Shown: piece by piece, positions 1 through 8,262 of the stretch
Layout: each line of letters starts with the position of its first letter
Position numbering within the stretch: the first letter of the stretch is position 1
DNA from: Rhizobiales bacterium 64-17
GTDB taxonomy: Bacteria > Pseudomonadota > Alphaproteobacteria > Rhizobiales > Xanthobacteraceae
Reading direction: 5' to 3'
Length of the DNA stretch: 50,183 bases
Assembly (NCBI GenBank): GCA_001899285.1
Contig: MKWA01000004.1
Span: 72,742-122,924, forward strand
The notes under the pieces: model-generated
Database searches by the model: none
Seen by the model: only the letters and a program-made list of their open reading frames with translations
What the model was told of the DNA's origin: nothing
Made by a program: the position numbers and the translations under genes

Positions 1-1
1 C

Positions 2-376
2 GTCGAACGGCTGCCCCTGCCCGACACGTTACCGCCTCGCCAAGTCGGCCCATTCCAGAGGATTGATGCCCCGGACGATATCCGGGCTATCGCCAAGGCC
101 TGGGTCAACTGCCTGGCCGCTCACATCCATAATGTTGCTGAAGGACGGGTCGCGATTTATCTCAATGATCGCGAGCGGCCTCATGCTGCCGCATTGATTG
201 CTCGATATGGTCGATTGGGGTGGTTGGTTGAGGAGATCAAAGGCCCCGCCAATATTGAAATCGAGCCTAGCGCCCTCACCCGCTACCACCACCTCTTCGC
301 GAGCCGAGGGGTTGGATCCAGCGACGACCTCACGAGCATCCGAGCTCTCATGCTGGAGTACCGGTTGGCCAGTTAG
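2..376 (+). CDS. Hypothetical protein, C-terminal part (5' end outside window)
   Basis: An open frame runs from the window edge to a TAG at 374-376 and gives about 124 residues, so the gene starts to the left. The visible part is protein-like: a Trp-Val-Asn-Cys-Leu stretch, then VAEGRVAIYLN, then a WLVEEIKGPAN segment, ending ALMLEYRLAS. The pattern of a Cys-containing helix followed by a short strand pair and a GP(A/S)N turn faintly recalls PcfJ-like proteins of mobile elements, but this is only an impression. I do not assign a function. It lies next to a C-protein-like controller, consistent with accessory DNA. The antisense frame over the same bases is its shadow. Confidence 0.6.
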   Translation, partial: VERLPLPDTLPPRQVGPFQRIDAPDDIRAIAKAWVNCLAAHIHNVAEGRVAIYLNDRERPHAAALIARYGRLGWLVEEIKGPANIEIEPSALTRYHHLFASRGVGSSDDLTSIRALMLEYRLAS

Positions 377-425
377 ACTTGCTGGAAGCTCCGTTGCATT
401 CAACAAACGCCAATTGGGCTGACAA

Positions 426-650
426 CTACTCTAACAACCTAGGCAGAGGAACGGAGAGCGCATCGGCAATCCGAGCCATCACAAGCAAGCTCGGATTACG
501 TTTTCCCCGTTCTATTCCGCCGACGTAAGTCAGATCGATCTTCGCTTCGAAAGCAAGCTGCTCCTGAGTCAAGCGCCGTTTCAGGCGCGTTCCGCGAACA
601 TTCGATCCAAAAATCACCCTCCAATCCCGCATTGCAGGATTGAGCGGCAT
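426..650 (-). CDS. Small XRE-family HTH regulator resembling R-M controller (C) proteins
   Basis: This 74-residue protein is almost entirely one helix-turn-helix domain (about residues 14-70). It carries the classic LTQEQLAFEAKIDLTYVGG recognition region followed by IERGKRNPSL. Size and sequence match controller proteins of restriction-modification systems, which are 70-80 residues long and set the timing of endonuclease expression; similar stand-alone regulators occur on integrative elements. The ATG at 650 is chosen because a strong palindrome (657-676, with GACTATAGTC at 670-679) lies directly upstream with hardly any room for a leader, as is typical of leaderless C genes. An internal ATG at 632 is an alternative. 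No endonuclease gene follows directly; the nearest methyltransferase operon is about 3 kb away. Confidence 0.85.
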   Translation of the reverse strand: MPLNPAMRDWRVIFGSNVRGTRLKRRLTQEQLAFEAKIDLTYVGGIERGKRNPSLLVMARIADALSVPLPRLLE

Positions 651-656
651 ACGGCA

Positions 657-679
657 TATAGTCTCTAGGGACTATAGTC
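657..679. promoter_or_regulatory. C-box-like operator palindrome
   Basis: TATAGTC (657-663) and GACTATA (670-676) form a 20-bp palindrome with one mismatched pair, and the right half extends to GACTATAGTC (670-679). C-protein operators of R-M systems are built from GACT/AGTC half sites. The site touches the start of the controller gene at 650 and lies about 85 bp upstream of the divergent gene at 762, so it could act on both. Binding is inferred. Confidence 0.6.
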
Positions 680-761
680 ATTATTCGAAAATTTCTACCG
701 TCGTCCCAGTTCGCCAGGAATGCTCATCAGGGCATCAAATTCGCACACGAGGTAATCCCTC

Positions 762-1013
762 ATGGACACAATCTTCGAATGGCTCGGCCATGCCACCTGT
801 TCGGCGGCAAGCGGAATCGGGCTGCACACCCTCTACAATAAGTACTGTGTCGCGCTGCTCGGAACCAATTGGGACGGCATTTACCTGCCAAACTATCGGT
901 CTGTCGGCCAAGTTGTGTTCTTCGGTCTTGTTGCCTTGATCTTTGGCGGGCTCTTCACACGGCCACAAACCAAGTCAGAACACCGCGATGCCAATCATCA
1001 CGGCAACGAGTGA
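762..1013 (+). CDS. Small single-pass membrane protein of unknown function
   Basis: This 83-residue protein has a soluble N-terminal half and one hydrophobic segment near residues 49-65 (GQVVFFGLVALIFGGLF), followed by a charged, His-rich tail. A good ribosome site, GAGGT, precedes the ATG by eight bases. It is transcribed away from the C-protein-like gene and probably shares a transcript with the secreted protein that starts 38 bp downstream. No family is recognised. The promoter region includes the C-box palindrome, so the controller might also act on this unit. Confidence 0.65.
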   Translation: MDTIFEWLGHATCSAASGIGLHTLYNKYCVALLGTNWDGIYLPNYRSVGQVVFFGLVALIFGGLFTRPQTKSEHRDANHHGNE

Positions 1014-1050
1014 GCTTGAGAAAAAATAAATATCAGATCATCAGGAGACA

Positions 1051-1974
1051 ATGATGCGTATTGATTTGGTTTCAACCAGTTTAGCCGCGTTCTGCCTCGT
1101 AGCGCTATCGACCTACCAGGCGGCCACGCAGCCTGCCAACCCAAATGAAAATCCGGCTCCCAATGCAGGCCCTAATTCGCCCGCGCAGCACAAACGGGAC
1201 CTCCGCGGGGTGCAGCTAGGCATTACCACGAAGGAAGCGGCCCCAGCTTTCGCCGCTTATGCTCAATCGCTCTACAAGGTGAACTTTCAACCTGACCTAG
1301 CTATATATACGAACGCAGTTGAAAAGGCTGGCTCTTGTGCGATTCAAGTGAGAAACCAGTGGGATCTGGAAGCAGACGGCCGCCCCAAACAAGGGACTTT
1401 GATTCCACCAGGAAAGAACTGGAATGGAAAAATACGCGATTCCGGCTGCGTTACTTTGGGGGCGCTGGCAAATGCGTTCTCTTTCCCACCTAAGTGCCGT
1501 CTAGATTATTTGATTCGCGGCGCTTCAAAATTCGAATGCACAATTGTTCCTCCTCCCTCCTTCATGAACGGAACGACTGACGAACTGGGATTTCGTGCAA
1601 CGAGCACATATAAGCGAGGAACAATTTATCTCGTCCATTATGAATTCAGCTCCGAATCTGGAGTGACCGAGATTATCACCAACGTGACTGAACAGTTTGG
1701 TGTTAAGCCCTTCCGTGTCATGGTGCGCAGTCCCGTCGCTGGGAAAGAACTGCCCGTGTTCATTTGGGATTTAGGCGAGAAAACCTACGTGAAATTAAGT
1801 CTCAGCGACAGATGCTACATGGACTCACGCGGTATCGAAGCCTGTGAAGCCCGCGCTCCAAGGGGGCAAAGCTACAACTACTATTTGGATTTATATGATC
1901 AGAAGCTTATTGCTTTAGAAAATGAAGCAAATTCCAAGGCGACACCCCAGGTGAATCCCAAACCAAATCTTTGA
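1051..1974 (+). CDS. Secreted hypothetical protein
   Basis: The 307-residue product starts with a probable signal peptide (basic MMRID, hydrophobic stretch to about residue 22, then an AATQ cleavage-like site) and a Pro/Asn-rich linker. The mature part has several cysteines spread along it (in SCAIQ, GCVT, KCRL, FECTI, RCYMD, EACEAR), suggesting disulfide bonds in the periplasm. AGGAG lies five bases before the ATG. No catalytic motif or known family is seen. Its base composition is poorer in GC than the catabolic region to the right, in line with acquired DNA. It probably forms an operon with the small membrane protein upstream. Confidence 0.7.
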   Translation: MMRIDLVSTSLAAFCLVALSTYQAATQPANPNENPAPNAGPNSPAQHKRDLRGVQLGITTKEAAPAFAAYAQSLYKVNFQPDLAIYTNAVEKAGSCAIQVRNQWDLEADGRPKQGTLIPPGKNWNGKIRDSGCVTLGALANAFSFPPKCRLDYLIRGASKFECTIVPPPSFMNGTTDELGFRATSTYKRGTIYLVHYEFSSESGVTEIITNVTEQFGVKPFRVMVRSPVAGKELPVFIWDLGEKTYVKLSLSDRCYMDSRGIEACEARAPRGQSYNYYLDLYDQKLIALENEANSKATPQVNPKPNL

Positions 1975-2028
1975 TGCTTTCCTACAATATCACCGTAGAC
2001 ATTCGCCGACGCTGATACCTCGGGTCGC

Positions 2029-2535
2029 CTATTCTCGTCGAGCGTCAGCAAAACGATCCGCCGCGCCGCAGATTCCACCGTTCTTCTTTAAGAATCGAAT
2101 AAAGCGACAAAGCTCAACAGCCTGTGATGCCAAATAACGCAATGCGCGCGACCAGCGGCTCCGGCATTTTGCGTCTATTGGGTCTTTGATCGTACTCGCC
2201 GCAATGACAGCCGTGAAAACATCGAGAGATTTTCGAGCGGCCAAGCCGCCGGCGCGAGCGCATTTCTTGGTCAAACGACGGCATTTTTTGCGCGAACCAA
2301 CCGACAGCCCGATGCGATAAACCTCTTTAAGATACGCACGAAGCGATTTCTGATCTCTCGTCTTGCAAAAGAAAGTCCATTTTGCGGTCGCCTCGCTCAA
2401 AAGGCTTTCGATATCGTTGGCCGCTTTCTTTGGCGTATCACCCTCAATCAATAAGCTGCGCATCTCAGATCGCGGCTTCGCCTGCGATAACAGTTCTCTG
2501 ATGTGATCATCTCGAAATTTGTATTTTCTGAACAT
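2029..2535 (-). CDS. Hypothetical basic protein
   Basis: This is a 168-residue, Lys/Arg-rich protein that looks mainly helical, with Cys residues in the middle and C-terminal third and no signal peptide or membrane segment. The ATG at 2535 has a weak AAGGG upstream and directly follows a 29-bp inverted repeat (2546-2574). The codon pattern suggests a real gene, but I recognise no family. It stands alone on the minus strand, convergent with the secreted-protein gene, which ends 54 bp away. Confidence 0.55.
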   Translation of the reverse strand: MFRKYKFRDDHIRELLSQAKPRSEMRSLLIEGDTPKKAANDIESLLSEATAKWTFFCKTRDQKSLRAYLKEVYRIGLSVGSRKKCRRLTKKCARAGGLAARKSLDVFTAVIAASTIKDPIDAKCRSRWSRALRYLASQAVELCRFIRFLKKNGGICGAADRFADARRE

Positions 2536-2545
2536 GTAACTACCC

Positions 2546-2574
2546 TTTTTGTCGCGAAATCTTCACGACAAAAA
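2546..2574. promoter_or_regulatory. 29-bp inverted repeat upstream of the 2029-2535 gene
   Basis: TTTTTGTCG (2546-2554) is perfectly repeated inverted as CGACAAAAA (2566-2574). The inner bases extend the symmetry (GAA/TTC) with one mismatch. It lies 11 bp from the start codon at 2535 and is not followed by a T-run on either strand, so it looks like an operator rather than a terminator. Confidence 0.45.
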
Positions 2575-2657
2575 TTAGCGACGCGCGAAATAGATCGCTC
2601 GCTGAATTTGGGAAGTTAAAGGGGTTTCGCGCCTTCTAAGTGGATTTGAAGCGAAAC

Positions 2658-2762
2658 CTACTGAGTCAAATTTGGCAGAACCTCTGAGTTAGTTGATCTC
2701 GGCAGCCTAAGCCGGCGGGTCCAACGCCATCTGCCGTTCCGGCGCGTCAGGAAATCAGCCAT
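2658..2762 (-). pseudogene. Probable integrase N-terminal relic
   Basis: Reading from the ATG at 2762, the first 12 residues, MADFLTRRNGRW, look like the opening of tyrosine-type site-specific integrases common in rhizobia. These start with a short (D)FLxRRNGxW block followed by an RRVP motif. Here the sequence continues WTRRLRLP and stops after 34 residues, so at most the first few percent of a gene survives. The identification rests on this short block and is tentative. A tRNA-Gly 3'-end match 240 bp away supports a degraded integration site. Confidence 0.35.
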
Positions 2763-2776
2763 GGGTGCGCATCCGT

Positions 2777-2792
2777 GTTGGACGTTTTGTTG
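2777..2792. repeat. 16-bp direct repeat, copy 1
   Basis: GTTGGACGTTTTGTTG occurs here, 15 bp upstream of the integrase-like ATG, and again at 3145-3160. The two copies are 368 bp apart in the same orientation and bracket the tRNA-like match. Confidence 0.5.
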
Positions 2793-3000
2793 CACGTCCA
2801 CACAGCCCAACCGGGCTCCACGCCGACGGGCATGGATCAAGAGTAGCGGGCGACACGTCGCCGATGCTGGGAATAATTGGTAATTTCATACGATGGGCCC
2901 TCAGGTTAGGGCGCATCGCGCTGTGTCTACGTAAGACTTAAATGGAGCGGACGAAGCGTTCCCCTAAAGGAACGCTGAACCAGCTCTCCACCCTGATATC

Positions 3001-3014
3001 TGGAGCGGGTGAAG
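3001..3014 (-). other. Possible attachment-site remnant: tRNA-Gly 3' end
   Basis: On the minus strand the 14 bases CTTCACCCGCTCCA match the 3' terminus, including CCA, of alphaproteobacterial tRNA-Gly genes. The match stops before the T-loop, so no tRNA gene is present. Integrative elements that use tRNA genes leave such 3'-end copies at one border. The short length means chance is not excluded. Confidence 0.35.
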
Positions 3015-3087
3015 TGCTCGGACAGACCACGCGAAGCGCCGTGGTTGTTCGGAAACGCCATCGATTTTCTCTATCGCAATCAACTAT

Positions 3088-3846
3088 TTATTTTGGAGAA
3101 AACTTGGATTCGTGTTCGCGAGCGGCCCGTTTGAAATCGCTCACGTTGGACGTTTTGTTGGACGCTTTTTGGGGCTCCCACCCCCCGGACCCTCCCCTAG
3201 GGAGGTCGATAGCTGCAAACGGCAGTAGGACATGCCGGACCTCAATCCATGTCGGACCGGCCCGCTCATGGCCCGTGCTAAACCGCTCGATAGACGGAAG
3301 CGCGCCCCCATTCGTGACACCGCCGCGAGCCCTCAGCGGGGTCGCATTGGCCGTAATGGCGGCCTGAACCTGCTGTAGTCCGAATGGCAGGTCCCCATCC
3401 ATGACATAGCCGAGCATGCAGCCAACCGGTAGCCCCTCCGCGTACTGCTCCGTCACAAAGCGCATCAGACCTTCATTGACGTATGGCGTCGCGAGCGAAG
3501 AGCGTTTGCCTTGATGGACCGTGTTGAGGCGCTTGCACTCATACGGAAGGTAAGTTTCCCTATCCCAGTCGAGCAGAACCGCCAGGTCGATAATGCCCTT
3601 GCTGAACGTGGCACCCTGATCATCAATCCCGAATGGCTCGAACTGATACTCAATCCAGTGGCAAAGGGTCCGGACCACCGGATCGTTTACCAGCAAATCG
3701 ACAAGATTGATTGTGATGTCGTCTTCCTCAGGTTGCCCCTGCAACCGCCCTACGCATCCATTCCAGACGTACAATATCCGCTGCAAAATCCGCTCATCGA
3801 GGCTGACAAGACGGCGCTTCCAAGCCTGCGGATCGCCAAGCATCAT
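3088..3846 (-). CDS. Putative PD-(D/E)XK-fold nuclease, third gene of methyltransferase operon
   Basis: The 252-residue protein has a stretch that fits the active site of PD-(D/E)XK nucleases: Asp87 at the end of a strand (GIIDLAV), then a hydrophobic strand with Glu103-Cys-Lys105 (YECKRLN), spaced 16 residues apart. Glu67 and Glu70 upstream could complete the site. It overlaps the methyltransferase gene by 4 bp, so translation is probably coupled. Known restriction endonucleases share this fold but little sequence, so the nuclease role is inferred from motif and context. The C-terminal 30 residues (QKASNKTSNVSD onward) are polar and cover copy 2 of the 16-bp repeat, which may mean the gene end was remodelled at an element border. 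Confidence 0.7.
   Translation of the reverse strand: MMLGDPQAWKRRLVSLDERILQRILYVWNGCVGRLQGQPEEDDITINLVDLLVNDPVVRTLCHWIEYQFEPFGIDDQGATFSKGIIDLAVLLDWDRETYLPYECKRLNTVHQGKRSSLATPYVNEGLMRFVTEQYAEGLPVGCMLGYVMDGDLPFGLQQVQAAITANATPLRARGGVTNGGALPSIERFSTGHERAGPTWIEVRHVLLPFAAIDLPRGGSGGWEPQKASNKTSNVSDFKRAAREHESKFSPK
3145..3160. repeat. 16-bp direct repeat, copy 2
   Basis: Second copy of GTTGGACGTTTTGTTG, here inside the 3' end of the nuclease-like gene. It extends into an internal duplication, with GTTGGACG occurring twice around TTTT (3145-3164). Confidence 0.5.
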
Positions 3847-6800
3847 AGAGCTTGGCTCCGATCGCGCCCGATATCGGCTACCGTCTCTAACTCGTTGGCG
3901 ACGGCATCCGCATCCGCAAGAGCGGTTGACTCTAACCAGAACCGCATCTGCATCGGCTTGATCAGGTAGAGATTGGTGTCAACAAACACACGCAAGTCAG
4001 GCAACAGCTGGAAATTGCCATCCAGCGGTCGATGAATATGTTCCGCCAGCCGGGCTATCGTACTTTGCAATGACTCTGTTCGCTCCTCGACATAGTCCTT
4101 TTCCGAGGAAGCCAAACTCAGACGAAGTACCGCCAAGTCAGCATTGGAGGCTTCAAGCGCGGCGTTGACCTTCACGCCTTCTCTAAGCCATCCATCGAAA
4201 CGACTGATCAGCGTTCGGGCATAGCTTTCACGGTCACGTTGCGTCGGAGGTTTCCAAAGCTGAGGGTAGCTGCCTTGGTGCGGCTGCGTCGCTGGAATGA
4301 TTTGCGTTACGGTGTCCTCGACCAGCGTCACTTCGCTGTCCGATAGACAGAAGTAGTCGTAAGTCAACCTGTCGATTTCGCTTAGAATGTCGTCCGCGCT
4401 GCGTAGTTCAAAGGGTCCTTTAATCCGCTCAACCTCTCTCTGGATCAACTTAACGAGTTTCTTGCTCGCTTCCGTCGCACGCTTAGGATCGGGCAGATCA
4501 TTGATATCCGGGAATGGAAGGTTCAGAAGCTCCGCTTGCTGAACTTCCGGACGCTCCGTCCCGAACGATGCCGTACCGTGGAAAGCGAACCAGAGCGCGA
4601 GCCGGCTATTAAGGATCGCAGTCAGGAGCTTCGCCCGAGGTTCCTGTCCCTCTGGAACGGAAATCGCTTGGATGATGTGTTGGAACGTGAGCGCGTCTTC
4701 CGTGTACGCGGCACGCAACCGCCACTGCGTCGTCTCAACGCCGCGCGGTATCAAAACCCTCGGTCCGGAAAAGCCCGCCTCAAAACCAAGTCTCCGGACC
4801 CGCCTTGAGCGCGCAGGTTCCAAGCCGTCCACAGGCTGCGCTAAGCGACAAAACGCTTCGATGGGCAAGTCAGGCAATTGGCCGACAAATTTGCTCATGT
4901 AGTAGGATGACGATGAAGCAGAGTCAGACCCGTGATAGGGTTGATAGCCTTGACCGATCACCCACTTCCCGTGCGTATCTTCTCTTCGGCGCTTAAGACC
5001 CCCAAAGTCCTTGATAAGCGCAGCCAGGTTTGGAAGCCGCGTTAGATATGCAAAGAGCTTTGAGTCCGGCTCGCGCATCCACAAGCGGTGCTTAAAGGCC
5101 AGACCGTCCCGCTCTACAGTTGAAGAGCTAAGGGTCAATTTGTCGGCGCTACTCAAGGTAATCATGCGCTTGAGTTGTAGATTCAGGTCGGCTTTTGGTG
5201 CCCAATAATCGAACTTGTAAGATGCTTGCGGACGGTCGTTCGCTCCAAAAATAATCAAAGCAGCCGGACGGATCGCTCCGTCGAAAAGCTGGAAGCGCAG
5301 GTCCGCAAAATTAATTACGCGAACGATCTTGCTCTCCGTCACGAGCTTACGGCGCGCTTCCAATGAATTCGCCGCATGATTATGCAAGAAGCCCATTGCC
5401 GGGAGGAGAAACGCTACAAGCCCTCCCGGGCTAAGATGTTTCAAGGACTTCCATACGAAAGCCCACGCATCCTCTCCGCTTGGCATAGGAGCGTCATTCT
5501 TCTTCGACCACGCCAGTGACGCGCGCGTAGGCCCGCGACGGCTAGTCCACGGAGGATTCCCAATCAAGACTTCGAAACTATCGAGCTCCTTTTCAGGGTC
5601 GACGAAGAAGTCTCGGCGGACGAGCGTCTTGCCCCAAAGTTCGGGCAACAACTTCCCACGTTTGACCATCGCCCGAATATCCGGAGGTGAGACTTCCTCC
5701 AGCAGAGCGACGTAGAGGGAAAAGACGGCGACGCGTACAGCGCTTCCGTTTAGATCCCAGCCGTGAACGCGTTTGAGAATAGAAAGGAGACTATCCCAAC
5801 GGATCGTGCGCGCCTGCCGCGTCGTGCGCCAATGCTCGCAGAGGCGCTGGAACGAGCGCACCAGAAAAACGCCAGAGCCGCACGCTGGGTCGAGAAAGTG
5901 TCCCTTCTCCCGAGTAGTTGTCGGCAGAACGTCCCACAGCTGCGAAACGACTGAGTCCGCCAGAAACATGGGCGTGTAGTAGGCACCCTGCGCCTTTCGC
6001 TCATCCTCACGCTCGCCAAGGAAGCGGTCATAGACGGCGCTAACCAGTTCAATGGGAATGTAACGGAAGTCATATCCCCAAAAGCGGAATTGCCCTCCCT
6101 TAGCCATTTCCTCGCGCCCACTGCGAAAACGCGCGAGCACGTCGAGATGAGCTTCGGTAACCGTGGGGGCCTTGGAGGCGCTCTCGAAGGAGCACGGTGC
6201 AACGAAGAGATCACCATTGAAGTCTTCGCGAAGCGTCGAGAACAACGTCTTCAGCAGTTTGACATCACGCGATTCAAGCAAAGCAGAAAAGCTGTCCGCT
6301 TTCTTTCGAGTAGCTCCCTCGACATATTCTTTCGTGATGATTTCACGGTCTTCGAGGTAGGCAATAAACATCGCTTGAATCAGAAGCGCTTGAGCTGCGT
6401 CGGTTGAAAGGCTGGCTTTGCAAAGTTCTTGATGCGAAGCATTCAAATTGCCGAGCAGAACCTCATCGATGCGCTCTTTCGAATTGAAGTACTCGGCGTG
6501 CTCTTTCCAAAGACGACCTGACTCAGCTCCATAAATGATATTGCTGACTTCTAGAGCTTGCATCGTCGCATCGAGAGTCACGACGAGGCAGCGACGGTCG
6601 AAGTCGTCGCCCCACTCGCGTTGAGGCATCCGGGCCAGTGAGAATGCTCGGACCGTATCCTGCGTAAGGACGAGCAAAAGGCTGGCAAGGCCCTGGTTCC
6701 AGAGTGCGCCGTGGATGTCGACCACCCGTTTCGGGTCGTACTCTTCGACCTGAAGCATCGCAATGGTCGGAACGCCCTGCACGCAGAGCATCCCTGACAA

Positions 6801-6947
6801 GCCAAGCTCATCGAGCGCCGCGCGAATGGCGACCGCGTGCGGCGTATCCAGCACTGCTTCCGCGGATTCATAGAACTCAGGCGACTGGCGCGTGAGCAAT
6901 CCAAGCCGCTGCTTCCACGGGTTCGAGAGAACTTGAGCGCGCGTCAC
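3843..6947 (-). CDS. Large N6-adenine-specific DNA methyltransferase (Type IIG/PglX-like architecture)
   Basis: The 1034-residue protein has the motif order of gamma-type N6-adenine methyltransferases. A GAYYTP block near residue 320 is followed by SAM motif I, FLDPACGSGVFLV, starting at residue 351, and by catalytic motif IV, NPPW, at 464-467. A ~300-residue N-terminal domain precedes the core. The C-terminal ~450 residues would hold target recognition and coiled-coil-like helices. Size and layout resemble Type IIG restriction-methylation fusions and PglX-type methylases, but I see no clear PD-ExK site in its own N-terminus; that motif is in the overlapping downstream gene instead. It overlaps the MerR-like gene upstream and the nuclease-like gene downstream by 4 bp each. 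The likely role is epigenetic marking of self DNA in a restriction or defence system. Confidence 0.88.
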   Translation of the reverse strand: MTRAQVLSNPWKQRLGLLTRQSPEFYESAEAVLDTPHAVAIRAALDELGLSGMLCVQGVPTIAMLQVEEYDPKRVVDIHGALWNQGLASLLLVLTQDTVRAFSLARMPQREWGDDFDRRCLVVTLDATMQALEVSNIIYGAESGRLWKEHAEYFNSKERIDEVLLGNLNASHQELCKASLSTDAAQALLIQAMFIAYLEDREIITKEYVEGATRKKADSFSALLESRDVKLLKTLFSTLREDFNGDLFVAPCSFESASKAPTVTEAHLDVLARFRSGREEMAKGGQFRFWGYDFRYIPIELVSAVYDRFLGEREDERKAQGAYYTPMFLADSVVSQLWDVLPTTTREKGHFLDPACGSGVFLVRSFQRLCEHWRTTRQARTIRWDSLLSILKRVHGWDLNGSAVRVAVFSLYVALLEEVSPPDIRAMVKRGKLLPELWGKTLVRRDFFVDPEKELDSFEVLIGNPPWTSRRGPTRASLAWSKKNDAPMPSGEDAWAFVWKSLKHLSPGGLVAFLLPAMGFLHNHAANSLEARRKLVTESKIVRVINFADLRFQLFDGAIRPAALIIFGANDRPQASYKFDYWAPKADLNLQLKRMITLSSADKLTLSSSTVERDGLAFKHRLWMREPDSKLFAYLTRLPNLAALIKDFGGLKRRREDTHGKWVIGQGYQPYHGSDSASSSSYYMSKFVGQLPDLPIEAFCRLAQPVDGLEPARSRRVRRLGFEAGFSGPRVLIPRGVETTQWRLRAAYTEDALTFQHIIQAISVPEGQEPRAKLLTAILNSRLALWFAFHGTASFGTERPEVQQAELLNLPFPDINDLPDPKRATEASKKLVKLIQREVERIKGPFELRSADDILSEIDRLTYDYFCLSDSEVTLVEDTVTQIIPATQPHQGSYPQLWKPPTQRDRESYARTLISRFDGWLREGVKVNAALEASNADLAVLRLSLASSEKDYVEERTESLQSTIARLAEHIHRPLDGNFQLLPDLRVFVDTNLYLIKPMQMRFWLESTALADADAVANELETVADIGRDRSQAL

Positions 6948-7420
6948 GACGACCGTCCCGCCCTACGACGAACGTCCGAAAACTCCACAGGCGGAAACTG
7001 AAATTGCTGTTGCTCGGAAGCCGGAAGAAGCCCTTTCAGAGCGCTACCGAGTTCCATCATGAGAGGCGACATCGGACAAATGATGATCGGCTTATCACGC
7101 ACACTCTCCGTACCATGCCCGACCATGCGGCACGTCTGCGCTTCGGGGGCGATCACGACATCGCGGTCGATCAGCTTTGCCCACGGACTGGCATTGCACA
7201 GGCGGACAATCGCAACGGATAACTCACTCAGGTGACCGGCCCGAACGCCAAAGGTCTCGGTCAGGCAGCGGAGCACCCTCGCCGCGACGAGATCGCCGAT
7301 GCTGAATCCCGCCACATACCCTTGGCGATCCGCGAAAGGCGGCAGAACCCGTTTCCAGTGGCGATACGTCTCCACCGAAATGCCGACTGTTTCCCGCAAC
7401 TGGCCAGGCGTAAATTGCAC
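6944..7420 (-). CDS. MerR-like HTH protein, first gene of methyltransferase operon
   Basis: The 158-residue product opens with a winged-helix segment like the MerR family (FTPGQLRETVGISVETYRHW, then GYVAGFSIGDLVAARVL). There is no typical MerR coiled coil or metal site; the C-terminal ~90 residues end in a disordered, basic tail. The start is a GTG at 7420 with only a weak G-rich ribosome site. It heads a three-gene unit with 4-bp overlaps, so it may be a transcriptional regulator of the unit or a DNA-binding specificity partner for the methyltransferase. A LexA-type box and a promoter-like pair lie about 45-95 bp upstream, and two alternative hairpins sit in its leader. Confidence 0.75.
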   Translation of the reverse strand: MQFTPGQLRETVGISVETYRHWKRVLPPFADRQGYVAGFSIGDLVAARVLRCLTETFGVRAGHLSELSVAIVRLCNASPWAKLIDRDVVIAPEAQTCRMVGHGTESVRDKPIIICPMSPLMMELGSALKGLLPASEQQQFQFPPVEFSDVRRRAGRSS

Positions 7421-7428
7421 TGCGTACT

Positions 7429-7455
7429 ACCCCAAGGAATCATGGGGTGAACCCC
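7429..7455 (-). other. Leader with two mutually exclusive hairpins
   Basis: In the minus-strand leader the CCCC at 7444-7447 can pair with GGGG at 7452-7455 (four-base loop) or, as part of ACCCCA/TGGGGT, with 7429-7434. The second pairing hides the only G-rich segment near the GTG start at 7420. This could influence translation; it is inferred from sequence alone. Confidence 0.3.
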
Positions 7456-7462
7456 CAAAAAA

Positions 7463-7491
7463 ACCTTACGGTCCGCGCCGTGAGACGTCAA
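7463..7491 (-). promoter_or_regulatory. Putative promoter of the methyltransferase operon
   Basis: On the minus strand TTGACG (7491-7486) is followed after 17 bp by TAAGGT (7468-7463), a fair sigma-70-type pair. Transcription would begin near 7456, giving a leader of about 36 nt before the GTG at 7420. The LexA-type box lies 8 bp upstream of the -35 hexamer. Confidence 0.45.
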
Positions 7492-7513: not shown

Positions 7514-7614
7514 TATTTAAACTGAAGCAAATTCAGATACTTACGTGAATCACCCTCAATCAGCGCGAGAAAGCGGTGGACTGTCGCCGTTCCGCCAGTG
7601 TTCTGTCCGTAGCC

Positions 7615-8262
7615 ATGCCCCCATCTTCCCAATCATCCGCCAGCGACGACGAGACCGATCAGAAGTGCGTTTGCTTCGCCTGCACGGGCGAAGCCTACCT
7701 TTCGGACCTGATCCACACCGCAGGAACAGAGCAGACCTGTTCCTATTGCGGCGAGACACAAGAAGCGGTCGGCATCGAACAACTTGCTGATCACATCGAA
7801 GGTGCTTTCAACCGCCACTACCAGCAAACCTCGACGGAGCCAAACGACTACGAATTCATACTGCAGCGTGATCGCGAAAGCTCTTACGAATGGGAGCGCC
7901 ACCCCGCGCTGGTTACGCCCGGCATCGTGCGCGACGTGCCGCAAAGCGCTCGTCTCTGGCAGGAGGAAATCTTCGGGCCGATCGCGCTGGTCAAGCCGTT
8001 CGGCACTGTGGACGAGGCGCCCGCGCTCACCAACGATTCCTCGTTTGGCCTGCAGGGCTCGGTGTTCACGCGGGATATCGGCACCGCGTTCCGTTTCGCC
8101 GATGATTTCGACGTCGGCGCATTGTGGATCAACGAAGCAAGCCGCTTCCGTCTCGACCTCTATCCGTTCGGCGGCGTCAAGCAGAGCGGCGTCGGGCGGG
8201 AAGGCGTGCGTTACTCCATCGAGGAAATGTCGCAGCTTCGCTTTGTCGGCATCCGGACGTAG
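7615..8262 (+). CDS. Chimeric gene: HEPN/RES N-terminal domain fused to aldehyde dehydrogenase C-terminus
   Basis: Residues 1 to about 95 match the N-terminal domain of HEPN/RES-type toxins: two CxxC pairs (CVCFAC and CSYC), then an EQLADHIEGAFNRHY helix and a STEPNDYEF block. From about residue 97 the protein becomes the last ~115 residues of an aldehyde dehydrogenase, with EEIFGPI, NDSSFGLQGSVFTRD, GALWIN and PFGGVKQSGVGRE. The RES catalytic domain and the dehydrogenase NAD-binding and catalytic Cys/Glu parts are absent, so neither activity is likely. The frame is intact across the join near 7890. This is best read as an island-border deletion scar. The ATG at 7615 is preferred to the GTG at 7576. 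Confidence 0.8.
   Translation: MPPSSQSSASDDETDQKCVCFACTGEAYLSDLIHTAGTEQTCSYCGETQEAVGIEQLADHIEGAFNRHYQQTSTEPNDYEFILQRDRESSYEWERHPALVTPGIVRDVPQSARLWQEEIFGPIALVKPFGTVDEAPALTNDSSFGLQGSVFTRDIGTAFRFADDFDVGALWINEASRFRLDLYPFGGVKQSGVGREGVRYSIEEMSQLRFVGIRT

Follow-up and report, generated by a model that had tools for sequence, protein, structure and literature searches.

A putative split variant of Type IIG-like restriction-modification in Rhizobiales bacterium 64-17: a methyltransferase with a degenerate nuclease domain and a separately encoded predicted nuclease

A three-gene operon of Rhizobiales bacterium 64-17 (GCA_001899285.1, contig MKWA01000004.1, 72,742-122,924; this whole stretch of 50,183 nucleotides is called the window here) probably encodes a mobile restriction-modification (R-M) system on a Type IIG-like scaffold, in which the internal nuclease of the methyltransferase is dead, a separate small protein is the cutter guided by the methyltransferase, and a third protein exerts control. 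It had been noticed in an earlier reading of the letters alone (the original prediction), whose three open reading frames (ORFs), joined by 4-bp overlaps, were verified; the junctions read GTGA, then ATGA. The genes, named REG, MTase and NUC here, and the parts of MTase are:

7420-6944, minus strand: REG, first gene, ORF of 158 amino acids (aa), GTG start; MerR-like helix-turn-helix (HTH) protein, putative operon controller
6947-3843, minus strand: MTase, second gene, 1034 aa, GTG start; gamma-type N6-adenine DNA methyltransferase
6495..6935, minus strand: restriction-endonuclease-like domain without catalytic triad (MTase residues 5-151)
5238..6050, minus strand: catalytic methyltransferase domain (MTase residues 300-570) with GAYYTP, DPACGSG and NPPW
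4398..5027, minus strand: probable target-recognition domain (MTase residues 641-850)
3846-3088, minus strand: NUC, third gene, 252 aa, ATG start; predicted PD-(D/E)XK-type nuclease subunit

In such a system the C-terminal half of MTase would read a specific DNA sequence and an adenine there would be methylated; NUC would be carried to the DNA in a complex with MTase, share its specificity and cleave where sites are unmethylated. The N-terminal nuclease domain of MTase, its catalytic residues lost, would most likely be kept as a docking or sensing module, and REG would control transcription of the operon.

MTase matches the Pfam families N6_Mtase (E 1.4e-16) and Eco57I (1.2e-9), and the motifs seen in the original prediction, GAYYTP (residues 321-326), DPACGSG (353-359) and NPPW (464-467), are present and show little or no variation among 21 aligned MTases (alignment A3, the window plus 20; alignment A4 holds the window plus 22 MTases picked for spread). 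PADLOC profile PDLC03623 (“REase_MTase_IIG”) is matched at full length (residues 8-1016, E 3.8e-88), in the relative L100 even at E 2.8e-250; in PHROGs only methyltransferase-core matches were obtained, and the matches in phage records are weak, partial and confined to three records. TaqI_C matches residues 739-811 weakly (E 0.3, under its cut-off), and no strong diversification was seen in the putative target-recognition region.

The N-terminal domain of MTase is predicted to fold as in BpuSI and DrdV and is retained in the aligned members, yet an in-register triad of D, D/E and K is found in none of 25 (D alone in five, D-x-K alone in two; L061 is gapped there); from the model, this region is a nuclease domain of Type IIG-like kind that has degenerated. 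A sequence search of solved structures with it returned mostly unrelated viral polymerases and, weakly, MmeI (E 1.2). Were the PADLOC label taken literally, the large protein alone would cut and methylate and the small gene would be an accessory. The full-length PDLC03623 match and the fold shared with BpuSI and DrdV are in line with this, whereas it is NUC that has the triad, without variation, and NUC stands beside strong MTases wherever the downstream stretch is complete; we regard a single-chain enzyme as highly improbable, and as the principal explanation it is ruled out by the missing N-terminal triad.

The residues absent from MTase are found in NUC. The motif D87...E103-x-K105 named in the original prediction was confirmed: D87, E103 and K105 (E103-C-K105) are invariant in 40 aligned sequences (alignment A1, the window plus 39 of 55 NUC places, excluding near-copies, L048 with its ambiguous letter, and the loci from the genome search and plasmid records) and also in a second set of 38 that diverge more, so that chance does not account for the motif; E41, H193 and H205 are likewise family-invariant. 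The fold check that had been proposed for this protein gave a nuclease-type fold: the AF2 model has a pLDDT of 85.5, and the fold is supported by VIA rows, the best being the 192-residue chain of the restriction enzyme OkrAI. With a predicted core fold and D...(D/E)xK residues, NUC fits the PD-(D/E)XK superfamily, and it is putatively the functional cutter. By sequence it is elusive. Pfam PDDEXK_9 is reached by one of 40 members (E 9.6e-4), the window's NUC and REG have no family model in four libraries, PHROGs included, and solved structures gave nothing for either up to E 10; in plain Foldseek the top ranks for NUC went to phosphatases, with no match at E<=0.001 in the viral library.

Rather than a new system without relatives, the operon is a split form of a known kind of R-M, because MTase belongs to the PADLOC Type IIG family and has a degenerate Type IIG-like N-terminus. 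It shares with Type IIG enzymes (BpuSI, DrdV, Eco57I, MmeI) a gamma-class adenine methyltransferase, about 1000 aa long, in which a restriction-endonuclease-like domain forms the N-terminus and, putatively, a recognition region the C-terminal part. It differs in that the N-terminal domain lacks the catalytic PD-(D/E)XK residues, the intact residues lying in a separate ORF, whereas R is joined to M in every organisation of Table 4 in PMC3874165, as far as the available part of that source goes; because the catalytic N-terminus is lacking, the system is not a Type IIG member as defined there (section 36). Of the original prediction of an undescribed restriction or defence operon, the restriction-like layout of HTH, methylase and nuclease genes therefore stands, while the placing of MTase in PDLC03623 speaks against complete novelty; the match to a named R-M or BREX type that it had named as its refutation exists insofar as the Type IIG profile is matched, but not for the catalytic N-terminus, and not for BREX. 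By analogy, the system may work like Type IIG or Type I restriction. R would, as in Type I, be a separate subunit acting with a gamma methyltransferase; unlike in Type I, NUC (about 218-252 aa in the family) leaves no room for a translocase and the operon has no separate S gene. Type IIB systems (BcgI and kin) are similarly multi-subunit and related to Type I, and they have no translocating motor, but in BcgI the separate subunit confers specificity and R is fused to M (PMC3874165, available part), while here R is separate. For Haloferax HVO_A0006/HVO_A0237, the accessible text of PMC4389544 suggests that a lone Type IIG nuclease fragment may complement a Type IIG methyltransferase without one; that fragment is flanked by transposons, 231 genes distant and homologous to a Type IIG N-terminus, unlike the present case, in which the operon is kept in many loci and NUC is not detectably related to the N-terminal domain. 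The methylase core is also related to BREX PglX, MADS MAD2 and DISARM DrmMI. BREX and MADS membership is ruled out by scores far under the curated cut-offs (BREX-2 PglX 61 of 400 bits, MAD2 27.2 of 720 bits); no partner genes of BREX, MADS or DISARM type are among the eight annotated of 28 recurrent neighbour clusters, DrmA and DrmB not having been searched individually.

That the genes belong together, as the original prediction had proposed to check, is borne out by their distribution. An MTase scan of genome contigs gave 48 loci, labelled Alpha-, Beta-, Gamma- and Deltaproteobacteria, Acidobacteria, Gemmatimonadetes and Planctomycetes and including many metagenome assemblies; not all of them count as independent, since the MTase ends do not differ between L019 and L046 or between L031 and L039, and one isolate, assembled twice, supplies both L032 and L033. 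A match to the NUC profile (E<=1e-4) is present at 47 of these loci, in L056 as fragments, the exception being L012, where the contig ends inside MTase. REG is found in 33 (in L043 as a 91-aa piece); among the 15 loci without it, the contig ends in L036, L042, L054, L055 and L057, L056 is a decayed remnant, and in nine (L013, L032, L033, L034, L037, L040, L048, L049, L051) REG is missing despite room. A sample independent of NUC, 385 genomes of the class, evenly drawn at one per species and searched with the MTase profile (E<=1e-10), gave 18 matches; in all ten genomes with a strong match (E<1e-30), the bacterium's own included, a NUC-family gene lies directly downstream, with the MTase or NUC frame split or containing a stop in three (G082, G312, G277). 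None of the six weak-match genomes with a visible downstream stretch carries NUC there (the other two are G288, where the contig ends, and G074), and the eight weak matches, mainly to the catalytic core, are other MTases. NUC itself is rare and patchy: a single-sequence search, own genome counted, found it in 8 of 385 genomes of the class, where G326 is a marginal match interrupted by stops, in 6 of 398 of the phylum and in 4 of 149 of the family, while the six other genomes listed for the same genus gave none.

Identity matrices for 31 loci (the window, 28 of the 33 REG-bearing genome loci, excluding L012, L022, L039, L043 and L047, and two plasmid loci) correlate at 0.969 for MTase-NUC, 0.932 for MTase-REG and 0.893 for NUC-REG (Mantel; 0 of 2000 permutations reach each), from which co-inheritance of the three genes follows, with the caveat that near-copies are included. 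Compared with the window, NUC is 54-58% identical in most loci where MTase is about 64%, across loci labelled as five phyla. In L047, L048, L056, L091, L103 and L108 the MTase frame is broken or decayed, with NUC still open in most. The dN/dS values against L010 (REG 0.13, MTase 0.04, NUC 0.04, the latter two with saturated dS) fit purifying selection on the operon.

In the wide sense of Type II R-M, that is, paired methyltransferase and restriction-endonuclease-like genes, the operon qualifies. As an alternative, NUC would be an independent restriction enzyme with its own site, as in Type IIP pairs, MTase being its cognate methylase with a leftover N-terminal domain. The size of NUC and its best structural row, OkrAI, would suit such an enzyme, and a published model has R and M become separate through duplication and loss events in a Type IIG ancestor (PMC6158711, as far as available). 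This explanation is nevertheless unlikely, as NUC co-varies tightly with MTase, the inert N-terminal domain is retained in aligned members, and a profile comparison (hhalign) of NUC with that domain gave a probability of 0.3% and no detectable profile similarity, so that NUC is not evidently a duplicate of the domain. Orthodox Type IIP nucleases diverge fast, unlike NUC. A cutter guided by MTase remains the preferred reading.

REG is the fastest-evolving gene, with 22-28% identity to Ancylobacter-type REGs where MTase is about 64% identical. The original call of a MerR-like HTH protein is weakly supported, and through relatives: MerR_1 matches four of 26 members (best E 0.0068) and the distant REG of L101, tied to that of the window only via L100, passes the MerR cut-off, but the window's 158-aa protein itself has no Pfam match at E<=1. 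The slot is taken by ribbon-helix-helix (RHH)-like genes in some distant relatives (L102 and L107 by weak Pfam hints, L106 by likeness to both) and by an XRE-annotated gene in L105; the HTH gene, being absent or replaced in some relatives, does not define the system. REG-family genes also lead a separate operon:

L061 9974-13463: sister operon of a REG-family gene, an N6 methylase of 828-830 aa and a PIN-domain protein (PF01850, 1e-10) in place of NUC
L062 10001-13473: sister operon of the same kind
L089 1108-4586: sister operon of the same kind
L090 5920-9407: sister operon of the same kind

Because the slot is swapped and the same family heads another operon, REG looks more like a portable controller than like a structural subunit. 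A small, putatively regulatory DNA-binding gene heading the operon recalls C-protein-controlled Type II systems, among which such controllers are widespread (PMC12707154, available part); unlike there, no single C-protein family is involved, the controller being MerR-like here and RHH-like or XRE-annotated in some relatives. For a methylase, a PIN protein is an uncommon partner, and L141 (3324-6574), where an 897-aa methylase (profile E 3e-23) is followed by a 182-aa ORF without Pfam family, may be another methylase-partner pair. Upstream of REG lie two candidate signals:

7463..7491, minus strand: promoter-like TTGACG-17-TAAGGT, 8/12 matches
7444..7455, minus strand: short dyad GGGGTTCACCCC, candidate operator, between the -10-like hexamer and the REG start

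Sites similar to TTGACG-17-TAAGGT occur upstream of REG in L010, L011, L012 and L058; a promoter scan returned no site there at its threshold, below which this one scores. Dyads of different letters, alike by eye, are found near REG in relatives; against letter shuffles, p<=0.01 was reached only in L018, L053, L089 and L090 of 37 upstream regions, the window having p 0.055. Operator and promoter are therefore suggestive only. Some 2.4 kb from the operon, 426-650 (minus strand) encodes a 74-aa XRE protein (PADLOC R-M control protein, 1.9e-17); no R-M genes belonging to it were seen.

The operon region appears to be acquired DNA, since the left flank (1-3300) is matched in only one of 19 other genomes sampled from the genus, over 75 bases; the G+C content (56.6% against 58.8% for the window) adds little. 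Many relatives lie on plasmids, some conjugative, or beside conjugation genes. On the other side, ORF 7576-8262 (plus strand) fuses an N-terminal HEPN/RES fragment (PF18870, 5.4e-5, just under cut-off) to the C-terminal quarter of ALDH (aldehyde dehydrogenase; PF00171, 9.7e-37), the latter part 78% similar to another place in the genome; this chimera looks like the right border of an acquired island. Short direct repeats near the operon (1919/7519, 2428/7540, 2777/3145) are att-type candidates, and no tRNA is found in the window. A 60-aa ORF without Pfam match (2658-2840, minus strand) contains the stretch ADFLTRRNGRWRW, which resembles the start of tyrosine recombinases; the ORF, next to the operon, may be what is left of an integrase. 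Behind the operon, the two closest relatives (L010 12074-17511, L058 12980-18402) encode an Eco57I protein of 1376 aa, DrmMI/Type IIG-like, and a C92 protein of the permuted papain-like kind.

Of the 48 genome loci, 13 have genes of GajA/GajB type (Gabija) next to the module, as has the viral-contig locus L065; both genes are present in 12 of these 14, and the other two stop at contig edges; the GajA-like gene of L045 is two ORFs. The L014 pair alone was scanned with PADLOC (GajA 5e-238, GajB 2.9e-220), the remaining loci being grouped with it by BLAST. On a 45-row MTase tree the Gabija label changes eight times, at least six on well-supported branches, and the genes stand in both same-strand and convergent orientation, so that Gabija has been repeatedly joined or lost; in the window region examined, no Gabija-like gene was seen beside the operon. 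These neighbours, the many plasmid-borne and partly conjugative relatives and the sister arrangement with PIN replacing NUC behind the same kind of REG would also suit a non-classical defence or addiction module, for example a nuclease released or activated on disturbance of methylation with suicide of the cell, or plasmid maintenance. We think this quite improbable; R-M accounts for the architecture without added assumptions, and the PIN variant has a different, 828-aa methyltransferase, so that the mechanism need not be common to both.

Beyond the R-M reading of this one operon, it is tentatively suggested, at somewhat less than even chances, that the relatives form an unrecognised R-M class spread over many bacterial groups, in which a dead built-in nuclease serves as socket for an exchangeable cutter in trans (PD-(D/E)XK, possibly also PIN), a living intermediate on the proposed route by which R and M, fused in Type IIG enzymes, came to be separate. 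In the open-access literature (REBASE, preprints and most subscription journals lying outside the search) no paper was recognised from its title or the start of its abstract as describing an MTase-NUC pair, and the available parts of PMC12839542, PMC13092281, PMC12707154, PMC10853773, PMC6158711, PMC4389544 and PMC3874165 hold no such description; PMC13092281, on DefensePredictor, does list proteins of PD-(D/E)XK and of methyltransferase type. In plasmid records the large protein is annotated “N-6 DNA methylase” and its neighbour mostly as hypothetical protein, and PADLOC calls the large protein a Type IIG enzyme. If the reading is true, a whole family of mobile defence systems carries the wrong label, and the four libraries used hold no model for its cutter; the model of separate restriction enzymes descending from fused ones (PMC6158711, in its accessible part) would gain a concrete intermediate that can be assayed, and this MTase family would restrict only together with its small partner.
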